Source: Collinsella tanakaei
Lineage (GTDB): Bacteria > Actinomycetota > Coriobacteriia > Coriobacteriales > Coriobacteriaceae
Reading direction: 5' to 3'
Assembly (NCBI RefSeq): GCF_016900375.1
Contig: NZ_JACJKB010000007.1
Span: 1 to 64,000 of the forward strand
DNA length: 64,000 nt
The notes under the pieces were generated by a model. That model worked only from the letters and a program-made list of their open reading frames with translations, searched no databases and was not told the origin of the DNA. The position numbers and the translations under genes are program-made. Positions 23,274-27,763 of the stretch are shown here, in pieces (within the stretch, counting starts at the first letter, position 1; each line of letters starts with the position of its first letter).

Positions 23274-24545
23274 CTAGCGCACCTCCATCTCGGTCACGGT
23301 CTCCTCGAGCGTCGCGGCATCCACCGCGAAGCGCGCCGACATGGACGGCAGCGCCGGGTACCACATGCGGCTCACGACGCGGCCGTCGACGAGCGTCGCC
23401 GTGATGACCGGGTAGGAACGCTGACCCTCCTCCACCTCGCGCACGACGAGGATATCGGCCTTCTTGCCCTCCTCGAGGCTGCCGAGCTCGTCGTCGATCT
23501 TGACGGCGCGCGCCGGGTTGATGGTAAGCATGGCGAAGGCCTGCTCGAGCGGCAGCTTGAAATCGCGATGCAGCACGAATGCGCTCTGCAGCATGGCCGT
23601 GGGATAGTAATCGGAGCACAGGCACGATGCCACGCCGGCGCGCACCGCATCGCGCGCCGAGAGGTTGCCCGAATGGCTCTTGCCCAAAAGGATATTGGGC
23701 GTTCCCATGACCGTGGACATGCCGCGCTCCACCGCGGCGGCAGCGATATCCTGCGAGATGGGGAACTCCGAGATCGTGCAGCCGAGCTCGCGCATAAGGT
23801 CGAGCTTCTCGATGGTGTCGTCATCGTGGCTCGCCAGCGCGATACCCTGCTCGCGCGCGATGCCCGCCAGGTAGGAAAGCTGCTCGTAGCTCATCTTGGG
23901 AGCCGCCTGGGCGTCTGCCGCCAAGCGGGCGGCCTCCTCCTCGGTCAGATTTCCGCGGAACGACTTACGCCAGATCTCCATGTCGCGGTACTGGCCCTGG
24001 CCGGGCGTATGATCCATAAAGGAAAGCTCATCGATCTCGCCGGCGCGCAGGTGCTTCTCGACCTGCTCGACCAGACCGATGTTGTCGATCTCCAGGCGCA
24101 GGTGCAAGCGATGGCGGATGAGGTGCGCGTTGCGGCCCTCGGTGTGCTTGGCGCGCGAGATGAGGGCCATGAGCTGCTCGGTGCGATCCCATTGGCGCAC
24201 GGGCTTGACGTCCATCTTGTCCGCCCCGTAAACCGACAGCGAGTGGAACATCGTCGTGATGCCGTGGGCGATGAGCTCGCGCTCGGCCTCGAACAGCGCC
24301 GTGGGGAAATCCATCAGCACCGTCGGACGGGGCGAGATGACGGTCTCGATGTAGTCGGAGTGGATGTCGATCAGACCGGGCACGACGTAGCCGCCGTGGG
24401 CGTCGATAATGCCGGCGCCAGCGCCCTCCGCGTCGAGCGTACCCTGACGCTGGATGGCCTCGATGCGGTCGTCGACCACCACAAGCTCGTAACCGAACAG
24501 CAGCCGGTCGGGCTGCACGATGATACCGTTGCGAATAACGTACAT
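23274..24545 (-). CDS. phnM: Ribose 1-phosphonate 5-triphosphate diphosphatase PhnM
   Basis: This 423-residue amidohydrolase-superfamily enzyme releases pyrophosphate from alpha-D-ribose 1-alkylphosphonate 5-triphosphate. Visible features are VVPGLIDIHSDYIE (metal His), the FMDHTPGQGQYRD region, LASHDDDT, and GTPNILLGKSHSGNLSARDA. The length is usual for PhnM. AAAGGTGA precedes the start. Between it and the upstream phnK gene lie 361 bp occupied by the structured tandem element at 24603-24902, so it may be translated from a transcript carrying that structure just before its ribosome site. Confidence 0.95.
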   Translation of the reverse strand: MYVIRNGIIVQPDRLLFGYELVVVDDRIEAIQRQGTLDAEGAGAGIIDAHGGYVVPGLIDIHSDYIETVISPRPTVLMDFPTALFEAERELIAHGITTMFHSLSVYGADKMDVKPVRQWDRTEQLMALISRAKHTEGRNAHLIRHRLHLRLEIDNIGLVEQVEKHLRAGEIDELSFMDHTPGQGQYRDMEIWRKSFRGNLTEEEAARLAADAQAAPKMSYEQLSYLAGIAREQGIALASHDDDTIEKLDLMRELGCTISEFPISQDIAAAAVERGMSTVMGTPNILLGKSHSGNLSARDAVRAGVASCLCSDYYPTAMLQSAFVLHRDFKLPLEQAFAMLTINPARAVKIDDELGSLEEGKKADILVVREVEEGQRSYPVITATLVDGRVVSRMWYPALPSMSARFAVDAATLEETVTEMEVR

Positions 24546-24602
24546 AAGTCACCTTTCGATGAACCGTAAGAAGCATTCAAAACCAAGAACCCCGACGGGC
24601 TT

Positions 24603-24680
24603 CCCAGGTGCCGCAGATTGCCCTGAAAGAGGAGGGCATAGGCCTTAAGGGCCATGCGGAGAACTCGGAAAACCCCTGGG
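24603..24680 (-). ncRNA. Structured tandem element, unit 1 (partial)
   Basis: The first half is nearly identical to unit 3 (CCAGGTGCCGCAGATTGCCC, then the conserved GAAAGAGGA loop and the apical hairpin), but the right half diverges after GCCATGC. Only the outer CCCAGG/CCTGGG pairing is kept, so this copy looks rearranged or decayed. The strand given is that of the operon. Confidence 0.55.
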
Positions 24681-24692
24681 ATCGGTGACGGG

Positions 24693-24787
24693 TTTTCCAG
24701 GTGCCCGAGATTCGCCTGAAAGAGGAGGGCGCACGCCTTGCGTGCGGCGCCCGACGATTGAAGGCGAAGGTCGGGTGCCTGAGAAAA
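24693..24787 (-). ncRNA. Structured tandem element, unit 2
   Basis: About 95 bp fold into one long hairpin. On the plus strand the stems are CAGG/CCTG, CCCGA/TCGGG, TTCGCCT/AGGCGAA and an apical GGGC..GCACGC/GCGTGC..GCCC. Between the second pair of stems and the apical stem lies a conserved asymmetric loop, GAAAGAGGA opposite GACGATTGA. Compared with unit 3, several paired positions differ on both sides so that pairing is retained. It is transcribed with the C-P lyase operon. Confidence 0.65.
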
Positions 24788-24808
24788 CAACCCGGTAGCC
24801 CTAAAGGG

Positions 24809-24902
24809 TTTTCCAGGTGCCGCAGATTGCCCTGAAAGAGGAGGGCATAGGCCTTAAGGGCCATGCCCGACGATTGAAGGGCAAGGTGCGGTGCCTGGGA
24901 AA
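24809..24902 (-). ncRNA. Structured tandem element, unit 3
   Basis: This unit has the same fold as unit 2 with stems CCAGG/CCTGG, CCGCA/TGCGG, TTGCCCT/AGGGCAA and apical GGGCAT-A-GGCC/GGCCATGCCC with loop TTAAG. The internal loop GAAAGAGGA/GACGATTGA is identical to that of unit 2. It begins only 4 bp after the phnK stop codon. Its function is unknown; see findings. Confidence 0.65.
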
Positions 24903-24906
24903 GCCG

Positions 24907-25791
24907 TCACAGCAAGGAATACACGAGTTCTTGGGTATACGCATGCTGCGGATCCTGCATGATCTGGTCGGTCAAGCCGTGCTCGATCACGCGGCCGTCC
25001 AGCATGACGACCGTACGGTCGGCCAGCAGGCGGATCACGCCCAGATCATGGCTGACCACAACCATCGACACGCCGAGGTCGCGACGCAGCTGTAGGATCA
25101 AGTCGAGCACGCGCGCCTGGACGGACAGGTCGAGACCCGTCGTCACCTCGTCCAAAAACAGCACGGGCGGCTCGTTGGAGAGCGCCTTGGCGATCTGGAC
25201 GCGCTGCTGCATGCCGCCGGAAAACGCACGCGGGGGATCCTGCTTGCGGCGCAGGGGGATCTTCACGCGACCGAGCAGCTCCTCGCCCCGCTCGACCATG
25301 CGGTGCACATTGCGCCCGCCGGCGGCGATCTGCTTCTCGGCGATATTGGACAGGCTCGAGAAGTTCATGCGCAGGCCGAGGTAGGGGTTCTGATACACCA
25401 TGCCGAAGATGCGGTCGCGGATGAATCGCTGCTGCTGGCGGGAAACGGTAAAGCAGTTGGCCACGCCGCCGTCGTAGGCAGCCACGTTCATGGTTCCCTC
25501 GGTGGGATCCTGGTCGAAGTACAGGCACTGCATGAGGGTCGACTTGCCCGAACCGGACTCGCCCACGATGCCCAGGATCTCGCCGGGATGCACCTCGAGC
25601 GAAACGTTCCGAACGGCATGGACCGTGCCGCACACCGGACAGATATTGCGCTCGAGCTTGGCCTCGGGATCGGCGCAGTAGGAGCATCCCGCTCCGAAGC
25701 GCTTGGAAAGCCCCGTCACCTTGAGCACGGGGGCGTCGTCGCGAAACACGTGCTCGACGGGCACGGGAGCGCTCTTGGAATCCATCATCAT
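24907..25791 (-). CDS. phnK: C-P lyase subunit PhnK (ABC-type ATPase)
   Basis: This 294-residue ABC-like ATPase has Walker [20 protein letters not shown], signature FSGGMQQRVQIAKAL and Walker B VLFLDEVTTGLD. An N-terminal cysteine-containing insertion (CSYCADPEAK, then CPVCG at about 55) is typical of PhnK. PhnK binds the PhnGHIJ core complex and is needed for C-P bond cleavage in vivo. The frame starts immediately after the phnJ stop, with GGAGG 5 bp before the first of three ATG codons. Confidence 0.93.
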   Translation of the reverse strand: MMMDSKSAPVPVEHVFRDDAPVLKVTGLSKRFGAGCSYCADPEAKLERNICPVCGTVHAVRNVSLEVHPGEILGIVGESGSGKSTLMQCLYFDQDPTEGTMNVAAYDGGVANCFTVSRQQQRFIRDRIFGMVYQNPYLGLRMNFSSLSNIAEKQIAAGGRNVHRMVERGEELLGRVKIPLRRKQDPPRAFSGGMQQRVQIAKALSNEPPVLFLDEVTTGLDLSVQARVLDLILQLRRDLGVSMVVVSHDLGVIRLLADRTVVMLDGRVIEHGLTDQIMQDPQHAYTQELVYSLL

Positions 25792-26640
25792 CTACTCCTC
25801 CCCCTGCTCGCCGGAGACGCGCTGCGCGCAGTAGTCGGTATCGGAACACTGCCAGACCTGCTCGCCGGTCACAGGGTCCACGGTCTGGGTGAGGTAGACG
25901 CCTGTCGCTCCGCACACGTGGCAGCATGCGCCCTCGAACTCCTCGGTCACGAAGGGGTAGTCGTCGAAGGCAAGCGATTCGACGCGCGTATAGGGCGGCA
26001 CGGCGTAGATCTTCTTCTCGCGGCCTGCACCCAAAAGCGTCAGGTTGTCGGCCATGTTGAGGCGCGCGTTGTCGTAGCGCGGGATGGGGCTCGGCGCCAT
26101 GACGTAGCGGCCTCCGACCATCACGGGATGGTCGGCGCCGGTCGTCGTGGTCCCGTACCGCACGATCTGCTCGAACAGCTCCAGGTAGGCGCCGGTATAC
26201 TCGGCCTCAGCGTGCAGACGGCGGGTCACGGTCTCGCGCGGCTCGTAGGTACGAAGGGGCTCGGGCGTGGGCACCTGCAGGACGAGCAGCTGGTCGCGGG
26301 TGAGCGGCCGCTCGGGAATGCGGTGGCGGCTCTGGATCAGGGTGGCATCCTGGGTGCGCGTCGTGGTGTCCACGCCGGTCGTCTCGTGCACGAGCCCTCG
26401 GATAGACACGGCGTTCACGCTCGCATCCGATCCCTGGTCGATAACCTTCAGCACGTCATCGGGGCCGATGCACGACAGGGTCAGCTGCAGGCCGCCCGTA
26501 CCCCAGCCGCGACCGATAGGCATCTCGCGGCTTGCAAAGGGCACCTGATAGCCCGGGATGGCGACGCCCTTCAGAATCGCGCGGCGGATCTCGCGCTTGG
26601 AGCCCTCGTCCAAGAAGGCGAAGTTATAGTTCTTACGCAT
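25792..26640 (-). CDS. phnJ: C-P lyase PhnJ (radical SAM enzyme)
   Basis: This 282-residue enzyme cleaves the carbon-phosphorus bond, giving a hydrocarbon and 5-phosphoribosyl 1,2-cyclic phosphate. The unusual radical-SAM cluster motif of PhnJ is intact near the C-terminus: CHVC, then 21 residues to the third Cys (VWQCSDTDYC), and the extra catalytic Cys five residues later. The conserved body includes YNFAFLDEGSKREIRRA, GWGTGGLQLTLS and RLNMADNLTLL. The start at 26640 is preferred to 26649 because GGAGG is at proper distance only from it; it overlaps phnI by 8 bp. Confidence 0.96.
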   Translation of the reverse strand: MRKNYNFAFLDEGSKREIRRAILKGVAIPGYQVPFASREMPIGRGWGTGGLQLTLSCIGPDDVLKVIDQGSDASVNAVSIRGLVHETTGVDTTTRTQDATLIQSRHRIPERPLTRDQLLVLQVPTPEPLRTYEPRETVTRRLHAEAEYTGAYLELFEQIVRYGTTTTGADHPVMVGGRYVMAPSPIPRYDNARLNMADNLTLLGAGREKKIYAVPPYTRVESLAFDDYPFVTEEFEGACCHVCGATGVYLTQTVDPVTGEQVWQCSDTDYCAQRVSGEQGEE

Positions 26641-27763
26641 CCGCCTCATCCTCCTTCTCGGCCATGGAGCGCAGCGCGGAATCGAGCTTGCTCTGGAACG
26701 TCACGTAGTGCGGAAGCTTGAGATGGCTGATGAAGCCCGTGGCCTCGACCCCGTCGATGTGGTAGAGCACGAACTCCTGATCCTGCGTGGGGAAGCGCAC
26801 GTCGTCGGCGCGCAGCGAGTGATCGAGCACGCTCATGGCGATCGCCTTGCTCTCGTCGGAACCCACAACCAAGCCGTAGCCCACGTCGAGCGCCGAACGA
26901 TGGGCGCCGTCCTCGTCGACCTCGTCGGCAACGATCAGGCTCTCGACCTCCGTCACGGGGATGGAACCCAGGTAGTAGGCGTCATCCTCGGACGCGTCGG
27001 CGCCGGCGCCCGGAGCGTCGACCGTCACGGCAACCGTGCCACGGCGCAGCTCTCCCACCGTGGGGTGCGACAGACCGAAGCCGCGAATCGCCGCATAGCC
27101 GATGGCGATGACCGCCTGCGTGAGGCCGCGCGAGAGCGCCTGCAGGATCACGCTTCGCGGCGCAGGAAACGACAACGGGGTCTTGGTGATGTCGACCGGC
27201 TCGGTATCGTCAAGCGGGTAGTCGCGCACCATATCGATCGAGCGCAGGTAGGTGAGCACGCGCGGCACGCGGTCGAGGACACCGGCAGGCGTCTCGACCG
27301 CCGATGCATCGAGGCTCGCCTCGAGCTCGCGCAGACGGTCGCGCACGTCAGCGGTCGTCTCGTCTGCCAGCTCGAACTCGATAAGGCGATGCGCGTAGTC
27401 GCGCGTGGCGCCGAGAATCTGGCCGCCCTCGATATCCTTGAAGGCAGCGGAGATGCGGCGGTCGACGTGCATCTCGTTCGTATCGATCACGCGCGAGGTG
27501 TAGAGGCGCTCGAGCGTGGAGCGGTAGGCGCGCATGAGGAAGACGGCCTCCTCGACCGACCCGCACGCCTGCTTGACGGCGACGGCGGCGACCTCCGGAG
27601 CCCAAAGGGACCCCTCGGACTGAACCTGGCACACCAGCTCGGGCAGGCAGGACAGGACGGTATCGACATCGACGGAGCGCCCGCCCGCGACGCGCCTGCG
27701 CTCGTTCAGGTCGAGCGATGCGGAGATGGCCTGCTCACCGCCGGTCACGGCTACATATCCCAT
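26633..27763 (-). CDS. phnI: C-P lyase subunit PhnI
   Basis: This 376-residue protein has the conserved PhnI start MGYVAVTGGEQAISASLDL and segments such as ERLYTSRVIDTNEMHVDRR and QGIL-type SRGLTQAVIAIGYAAIR. PhnI is the catalytic nucleosidase subunit that, with PhnG, PhnH and PhnL, displaces adenine from ATP by phosphonate. It overlaps phnH by 13 bp and phnJ by 8 bp, so the core genes are translationally coupled. Confidence 0.95.
   Translation of the reverse strand: MGYVAVTGGEQAISASLDLNERRRVAGGRSVDVDTVLSCLPELVCQVQSEGSLWAPEVAAVAVKQACGSVEEAVFLMRAYRSTLERLYTSRVIDTNEMHVDRRISAAFKDIEGGQILGATRDYAHRLIEFELADETTADVRDRLRELEASLDASAVETPAGVLDRVPRVLTYLRSIDMVRDYPLDDTEPVDITKTPLSFPAPRSVILQALSRGLTQAVIAIGYAAIRGFGLSHPTVGELRRGTVAVTVDAPGAGADASEDDAYYLGSIPVTEVESLIVADEVDEDGAHRSALDVGYGLVVGSDESKAIAMSVLDHSLRADDVRFPTQDQEFVLYHIDGVEATGFISHLKLPHYVTFQSKLDSALRSMAEKEDEADA

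Follow-up and report, generated by a model that had tools for sequence, protein, structure and literature searches.

The window analysed here, a stretch of 64,000 nucleotides of Collinsella tanakaei DNA, contains an array that we consider likely to consist of three copies, all in direct orientation, of a non-autonomous palindromic repeat that is dispersed through the gut bacterium Collinsella and has in this case settled after the phnK stop codon. Copies of the repeat are numerous. Compensatory changes preserve its structure, a stack of tandem G.A steps is conserved in it, and most copies follow closely on a stop codon, with one orientation prevailing. We infer that it is or was mobile, and it is probably a new REP/REPIN- or MITE-like family of mobile palindromes. 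Because the fold is kept while the letters change, we are probably dealing with a mobile DNA hairpin and not with a phosphonate switch. No description of the repeat was found in the literature searched, with subscription journals and preprints outside the scope of that search, and it is apparently undescribed. PMC8040213 gives 3161 candidate RNAs from human microbiomes, 250 of them palindromic, and the repeat could be among these without a name. None of the names looked for occurs in PMC6006769.

The array and its fold

The array occupies window positions 24598-24905, in the intergenic gap between phnM and a phnK-like gene. The phnK-like gene (24907-25791, minus strand; a gene call with PhnK as best NCBIfam match at 211 bits, below the cut-off of 303) has its 3' end towards the array, and the array edge lies immediately before its stop codon, the lowest base of which is 24907. 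The next operon gene downstream is phnM (23274-24545, minus strand), which matches NF011990 with 455 bits (cut-off 233) and TIGR02318 PhnM with 386 bits, just below 391; a PhnL-like product is also encoded downstream, with PhnL as its best NCBIfam match, below the curated cut-off. The two genes upstream of the phnK-like gene (25792-27763, minus strand) had no NCBIfam match at E 1e-20. From their position in the gene order we take them to be phnJ- and phnI-like.

Unit 1 (24598-24682, plus strand) is a decayed copy in which the 5' half is intact and the 3' half of the hairpin is gone; the covariance model matches it at 24602-24682 with 16.4 bits (E 0.28) and its fold has a z of -1.9. Units 2 (24695-24785) and 3 (24811-24901), on the same strand, are complete hairpins, the latter adjoining the phnK-like stop codon, with model matches of 99.4 and 104.8 bits and folds of -64.0 kcal/mol (z -7.6) and -71.5 kcal/mol (z -11.0) respectively. 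The preliminary description, of two complete units and one half-decayed unit between phnK and phnM, is thus borne out by model matches and folds, and the compensatory stem exchanges that it reported between units 2 and 3 are present in the sequence.

The same description took the internal loops GAAAGAGGA and GACGATTGA to be invariant, and here we differ, as they consist of tandem G.A steps and Watson-Crick pairs, some of which covary. In unit 2 GAAAGAGGA is at 24718-24726 and GACGATTGA at 24753-24761, and in unit 3 they are at 24834-24842 and 24869-24877, all on the plus strand; the alignment pairs columns 24-32 with 59-67. The two sides align as GA-AA-GA-G-GA against AG-TT-AG-C-AG, giving three tandem 5'-GA/3'-AG steps with spacers of two and one Watson-Crick pairs. 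An A-T pair between steps is replaced by C-G in 3 of the 18 seed copies, and in 4 of the 18 two pairs of the upper stem are swapped for a further G.A/A.G step.

In the MAFFT alignment of the 18 seeds (17 distinct) there are changes on both sides in 21 of 33 pairs with 96.9% of cells paired, a level reached by none of 500 shuffles. For the larger set of 92 copies (86 distinct), the alignment of which was fitted to the covariance model, the figures are 32 of 33 pairs and 91.0% of cells, and proteobacterial copies have both-side changes in 25 of 33 pairs. Lack of covariation in a larger alignment had been named beforehand as grounds for giving up the RNA idea, and the covariation is strong. The three core steps are GA/GA in 88, 86 and 85 of the 92 copies, figures that overstate conservation, as the loci from named records were picked by an exact pattern that fixes part of the core. 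Among the 49 proteobacterial copies two of the steps are GA/GA in 44 and 46, and the third is GA/GA in 22, GC/AA in 20 and AA/GA in 4. The structure of the repeat is under selection. Copying of one arm from the other fails to explain the pattern, since mismatches are kept and are exchanged for other mismatches.

Copies in Collinsella and in Proteobacteria

A DNA search of the C. tanakaei genome found 22 matching places, and the covariance model built from 18 units found 29 copies. With this genome counted, 33 of the 58 genomes searched had a match; 32 of these belong to the genus, which is represented by 35 genomes carrying from 0 to 41 copies. A pattern search of named records, which matched at least 116 stretches, also places the family in Collinsella. 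Copies are single or in direct arrays. A longer subfamily of about 150-166 bp is found at several places per genome and in different genomes with 91-97% identity among the matches listed. A dispersed hairpin repeat was one of the readings first offered for the array, and the 29 copies in this genome and the matches in 32 of the 35 genomes of the genus uphold it. Of the random intergenic scatter on both strands expected of such a repeat, genome-wide occurrence on both strands was found, but the sites are gene 3' ends and not random intergenic places.

Gene neighbours were assigned with a purpose-written dicodon gene finder for 153 copies, comprising the 29 in the C. tanakaei genome and 124 at named loci (84 of 92 from one match set and 40 of 52 from another, leaving out Slackia and proteobacterial copies, very weak array members and one double-strand match). 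By this gene finder none of the 29 and one of the 124 lie inside genes. A gene 3' end faces the right end of the strand that carries the G.A steps, here called the G.A strand, in 95 of the 109 named copies with both neighbours and in 23 of 26 in the C. tanakaei genome. After merging of arrays and orthologous sites the orientation is the same at 61 of 71 independent sites (p 5e-10) and opposite at 10, and co-directional sites alone give 45 against 8 in favour of the same orientation. As the facing 3' end is thus fixed relative to the G.A strand, the mRNA of the host gene carries the complementary C.U strand. The stop codon of the facing gene is at most 60 nt away in 84 of 105 named and 18 of 25 own-genome cases. 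In one subfamily most copies have the hairpin no more than 30 nt from the stop, and in the other a second hairpin comes directly after the stop and the main hairpin at 42-50 nt. A TA target within the stop codon was considered for the Collinsella form and dropped, as there is no clear stop-codon bias beside the elements (TAG 53, TAA 37 and TGA 12, against 286, 247 and 60 overall).

With regard to individual sites, different subtypes of the repeat lie behind the same short-chain dehydrogenase gene in three genomes (L121, L128 and L043), which suggests repeated settlement, or replacement, at one site. In the case of the Collinsella form no clean empty site or target duplication was seen in four orthologous site groups.

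The pattern search also matched Novosphingobium, Erythrobacter, Dechloromonas and a Slackia MAG, all with the same fold; a match in Lihuaxuella does not fold like the repeat. Viral spread was considered and rejected, since 4 viral contigs matched the pattern, none of them by the model at E 0.01, and two were folded and lacked the hairpin. The sphingomonad and other proteobacterial elements are branched palindromes of about 270 nt in which this hairpin forms arm A; the predicted folds give an outer stem (arms of 31-41 nt in the four measured), arm A, a short hairpin of 2-4 bp and arm B. A second model matched 20 of 196 genomes in the order of N. subterraneum (N. subterraneum and N. hassiacum counted) and 5 of 274 in the class of the Dechloromonas MAG (the MAG itself counted), and five further loci from four genomes of that class have the same branched architecture when folded. 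One sphingomonad genome, G216, has nine nearly identical 270-bp copies, with TAGAGCC and GGCTCTA as visible ends. Its contigs (L331-L339) end inside or at the element; short-read assemblies break there, and copy counts are therefore probably low.

Sphingomonad copies are found in both orientations. Placement was determined for 45 of the 49 copies (two at L225, one at L148 and the duplicate L260 being left out). Where a 3' end faces the element from the left, the stop of that gene is 34-37 nt from arm A, at about the element end, in 16 of 27 copies; that of the right gene is at 139-142 nt, the other element end, in 13 of 20. Arms A and B have their G.A steps on opposite strands in 9 of 13 proteobacterial elements; of the remaining 4, one (L382) has G.A steps only in arm B, on the plus strand, and three are without clear arm B steps. 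In a Nevskia element the model matches arm B on the opposite strand.

We tentatively propose, at somewhat less than even probability, a mobile superfamily that crosses phyla and takes in Coriobacteriia, sphingomonads and other Proteobacteria. Its members would share a hairpin of single-stranded DNA with a conserved stack of sheared G.A pairs in tandem, mobilised by a strand-specific enzyme and settling just after stop codons, with a single arm in Collinsella and a branched form with arms of opposite polarity in Proteobacteria. Since homology rests on one shared hairpin and its core, convergence of the two forms is possible.

The folded molecule and its probable mobility

In all 140 distinct Collinsella copies the fold of the G.A strand is better than that of the C.U strand when RNA parameters are used, and with DNA parameters it is so in 133 of the 140; for sphingomonad arms the figures are 40 of 40 and 37 of 40. 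On average the two strands lie further apart under RNA parameters (-55.4 against -45.3) than under DNA parameters (-27.3 against -24.4), which speaks against the DNA reading. A better fold of the G.A strand tells us which strand matters, not which molecule. The preliminary description held that covarying stems with invariant loops mark a functional RNA; selection on structure stands, but the molecule is more likely DNA, because the host gene facing the repeat has the G.A strand as its antisense strand (61 of 71 sites) and the arms are of opposite polarity (9 of 13 elements). With G.A steps on opposite strands, one RNA could not use both arms. The loops of the second hairpin, read on the G.A strand, are GNNA in 34 of 41 (GGTA 17, GTTA 11, GGCA 4, GATA 1 and GCCA 1); in none of the 41 is the loop GNRA, the third base of the GNNA loops being a pyrimidine. 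GNNA is a stable DNA loop, and we count these loops, too, in favour of DNA.

The first reading to be weighed against a DNA hairpin is a cis-regulatory RNA specific to phosphonate or phosphate metabolism, which was raised in the preliminary description on the strength of the position of the array between a phnK-like gene and phnM. Scanning of 10 of the 25 host genes in the C. tanakaei genome, phnK included, gave unrelated families (ROK, PheS (phenylalanyl-tRNA synthetase), a transport permease, a GH1 glycosidase, DegV, a short-chain dehydrogenase, DnaJ, Zip and a carbamoyltransferase), so that copies follow genes of many kinds. Five relatives have a strong phnK match in a 43-genome search, and the covariance model finds no copy at their phnK loci; in four of them, for which the phnK-phnM gap was looked at, it holds about 10 to 250 bp of other sequence. 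No Rfam family reached its gathering threshold in the window array, and none reached threshold at 10 Coriobacteriia and Proteobacteria loci or at 12 proteobacterial loci, tRNAs aside; permissive scans gave chance-level matches to plant and animal miRNA models, far below gathering scores. The unrelated host genes and the lack of copies at the five phnK loci lead us to reject an RNA specific to phn genes, to which we give next to no probability, and any effect of the repeat on the phn operon is likely to be incidental. In two relatives (L086 and L087) the phnK-phnM gap holds another repeated motif, TTTTGACCCCGTCCC-like, from which it appears that this gap collects repeats.

An RNA element of mRNA 3' ends, in which hairpins after the stop protect the upstream message or serve processing and the stems are kept paired for that reason, is unlikely but would account for the tight placement after stops in one orientation to the host gene; selection on the transcript is a possible cause of the fixed orientation in Collinsella, and a role of transcribed hairpins in mRNA processing or stability is possible. 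The C.U strand does beat its own shuffles (MFE z of -5.4 and -6.2 for the minus strand of units 2 and 3), but the transcript is the C.U strand, where the conserved steps become pyrimidine mismatches and the fold is the poorer one in all 140 distinct copies, and sphingomonad copies occur in both orientations with arms of opposite polarity. The better-folding strand of the array is the plus strand, antisense to the phn operon, and an independent antisense RNA from it, with tandem sheared G.A pairs and a function in trans common to the copies, would fit both the better fold with the conserved core on that strand and a covariation resembling that of structured RNAs. We regard it as improbable, as there is no promoter-like site at the array (by a sigma-70 consensus scan, which is a weak test), no T-tract behind the second hairpin of the copies looked at and no Rfam family match, and arm polarity is opposite in Proteobacteria. 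An attC-like recombination site, in which a tyrosine recombinase would act on the folded antisense strand after the stop, matches the Collinsella copies in position, fixed orientation, folded strand and variable sequence with structure kept. It is very improbable nevertheless: no integron integrase exceeded the TIGR02249 cut-off in any of 43 genomes, with sub-cut-off matches occurring also in all 14 control genomes, and the sphingomonad forms have symmetric ends and both orientations. On the lack of an integrase over the cut-off in those 43 genomes we reject integron identity.

We thus prefer a mobile DNA hairpin. The selected form would be a single-stranded DNA hairpin on the G.A strand, formed during replication or mobilisation and recognised by an enzyme, as proposed for REP/REPIN elements. 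The transcribed copies in the phn operon would then be passive intercistronic hairpins without ligand sensing. Their possible effects are a slower 3'-to-5' decay of the mRNA on the phnK side or a reduced expression of phnM. In the case of the enzyme, the C. tanakaei genome has four Y1_Tnp genes, and over 35 genomes copy number correlates with Y1_Tnp count (rho 0.53, phylogeny uncontrolled); the five genomes without Y1_Tnp all have at most 5 copies (Fisher p 8e-4, phylogeny again uncontrolled). The hairpin is absent from all 33 Y1_Tnp loci (within 1.5 kb on either side), and no physical link to a RAYT was seen there. At one locus of the C. tanakaei genome (L024; G000:C1 226848-230180) a RAYT-like Y1_Tnp gene has GTTTGGGGACAGGTCCCAAAC-type palindromes to either side, four in total, at around 1159-1400 and 2229-2580 of the locus; these are a separate family that looks like the cognate repeat of that transposase.

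Sequence is the usual basis on which short bacterial repeats are defined. What marks this one is its fold, built on a particular non-Watson-Crick core. The fold outlasts changes in its stems and turns up again in phyla far apart, so that there may be a protein dedicated to recognising it, which could be looked for. The repeat is also a warning that selection acting on single-stranded DNA can produce strong covariation next to a gene and so pass for a riboswitch, and it is a natural test bed for separating covariation at the DNA level from that at the RNA level.

Comparison with known systems

Integron attC sites, which have the core sites RYYYAAC and GTTRRRY, lie after a stop codon, conserve fold over sequence and are folded from the antisense strand. 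The Collinsella repeat resembles them in these last three respects, but no integron integrase passes its cut-off in the 43 genomes, and its copies do not form cassette arrays but lie dispersed after ordinary genes. Sphingomonad copies are MITE-like in their long terminal inverted repeats, near-identical copies and ends compatible with a TA duplication; in contrast, the only terminal inverted repeat of Collinsella copies is the hairpin itself, there is no proven target duplication, and a parent IS was not found.

The likeness to REP, BIME and REPIN elements with their RAYTs, as described in PMC3116915, PMC2817692 and PMC3733652, lies in dispersed extragenic palindromes at several to dozens per genome, in arrays of two or three, in location near gene 3' ends and in single-stranded DNA hairpins as proposed working form. 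In PMC3733652 REPs are hairpins of 20-40 bp with an unpaired GTAG or CGTC tag, whereas the repeat is about 100 nt long in Collinsella and 270 nt in Proteobacteria. Its core hairpin, of about 91 nt, is outside the REP size and is not a REP hairpin by that definition. The repeat differs also in its tandem G.A core and freely covarying stems, and in its absence from the 33 Y1_Tnp loci. The two hairpins of a REPIN lie in inverted order within a larger palindrome; of the 13 proteobacterial elements 9 have arms of opposite polarity, one the reverse pattern and three no clear one, and Collinsella has single copies or direct arrays.

The CGTC-tagged REPs of PMC3733652, like the repeat, lack a known transposase. 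One Collinsella subfamily, and only that one, has CGTC ahead of its second hairpin as read along the G.A strand, and several sphingomonad elements contain GCGTCGC in arm B. The CGTC-tagged REPs described there, however, are one hairpin with stems of 8-9 bp and loops of 4-5 nt, whereas the repeat has longer stems and a G.A hairpin attached.
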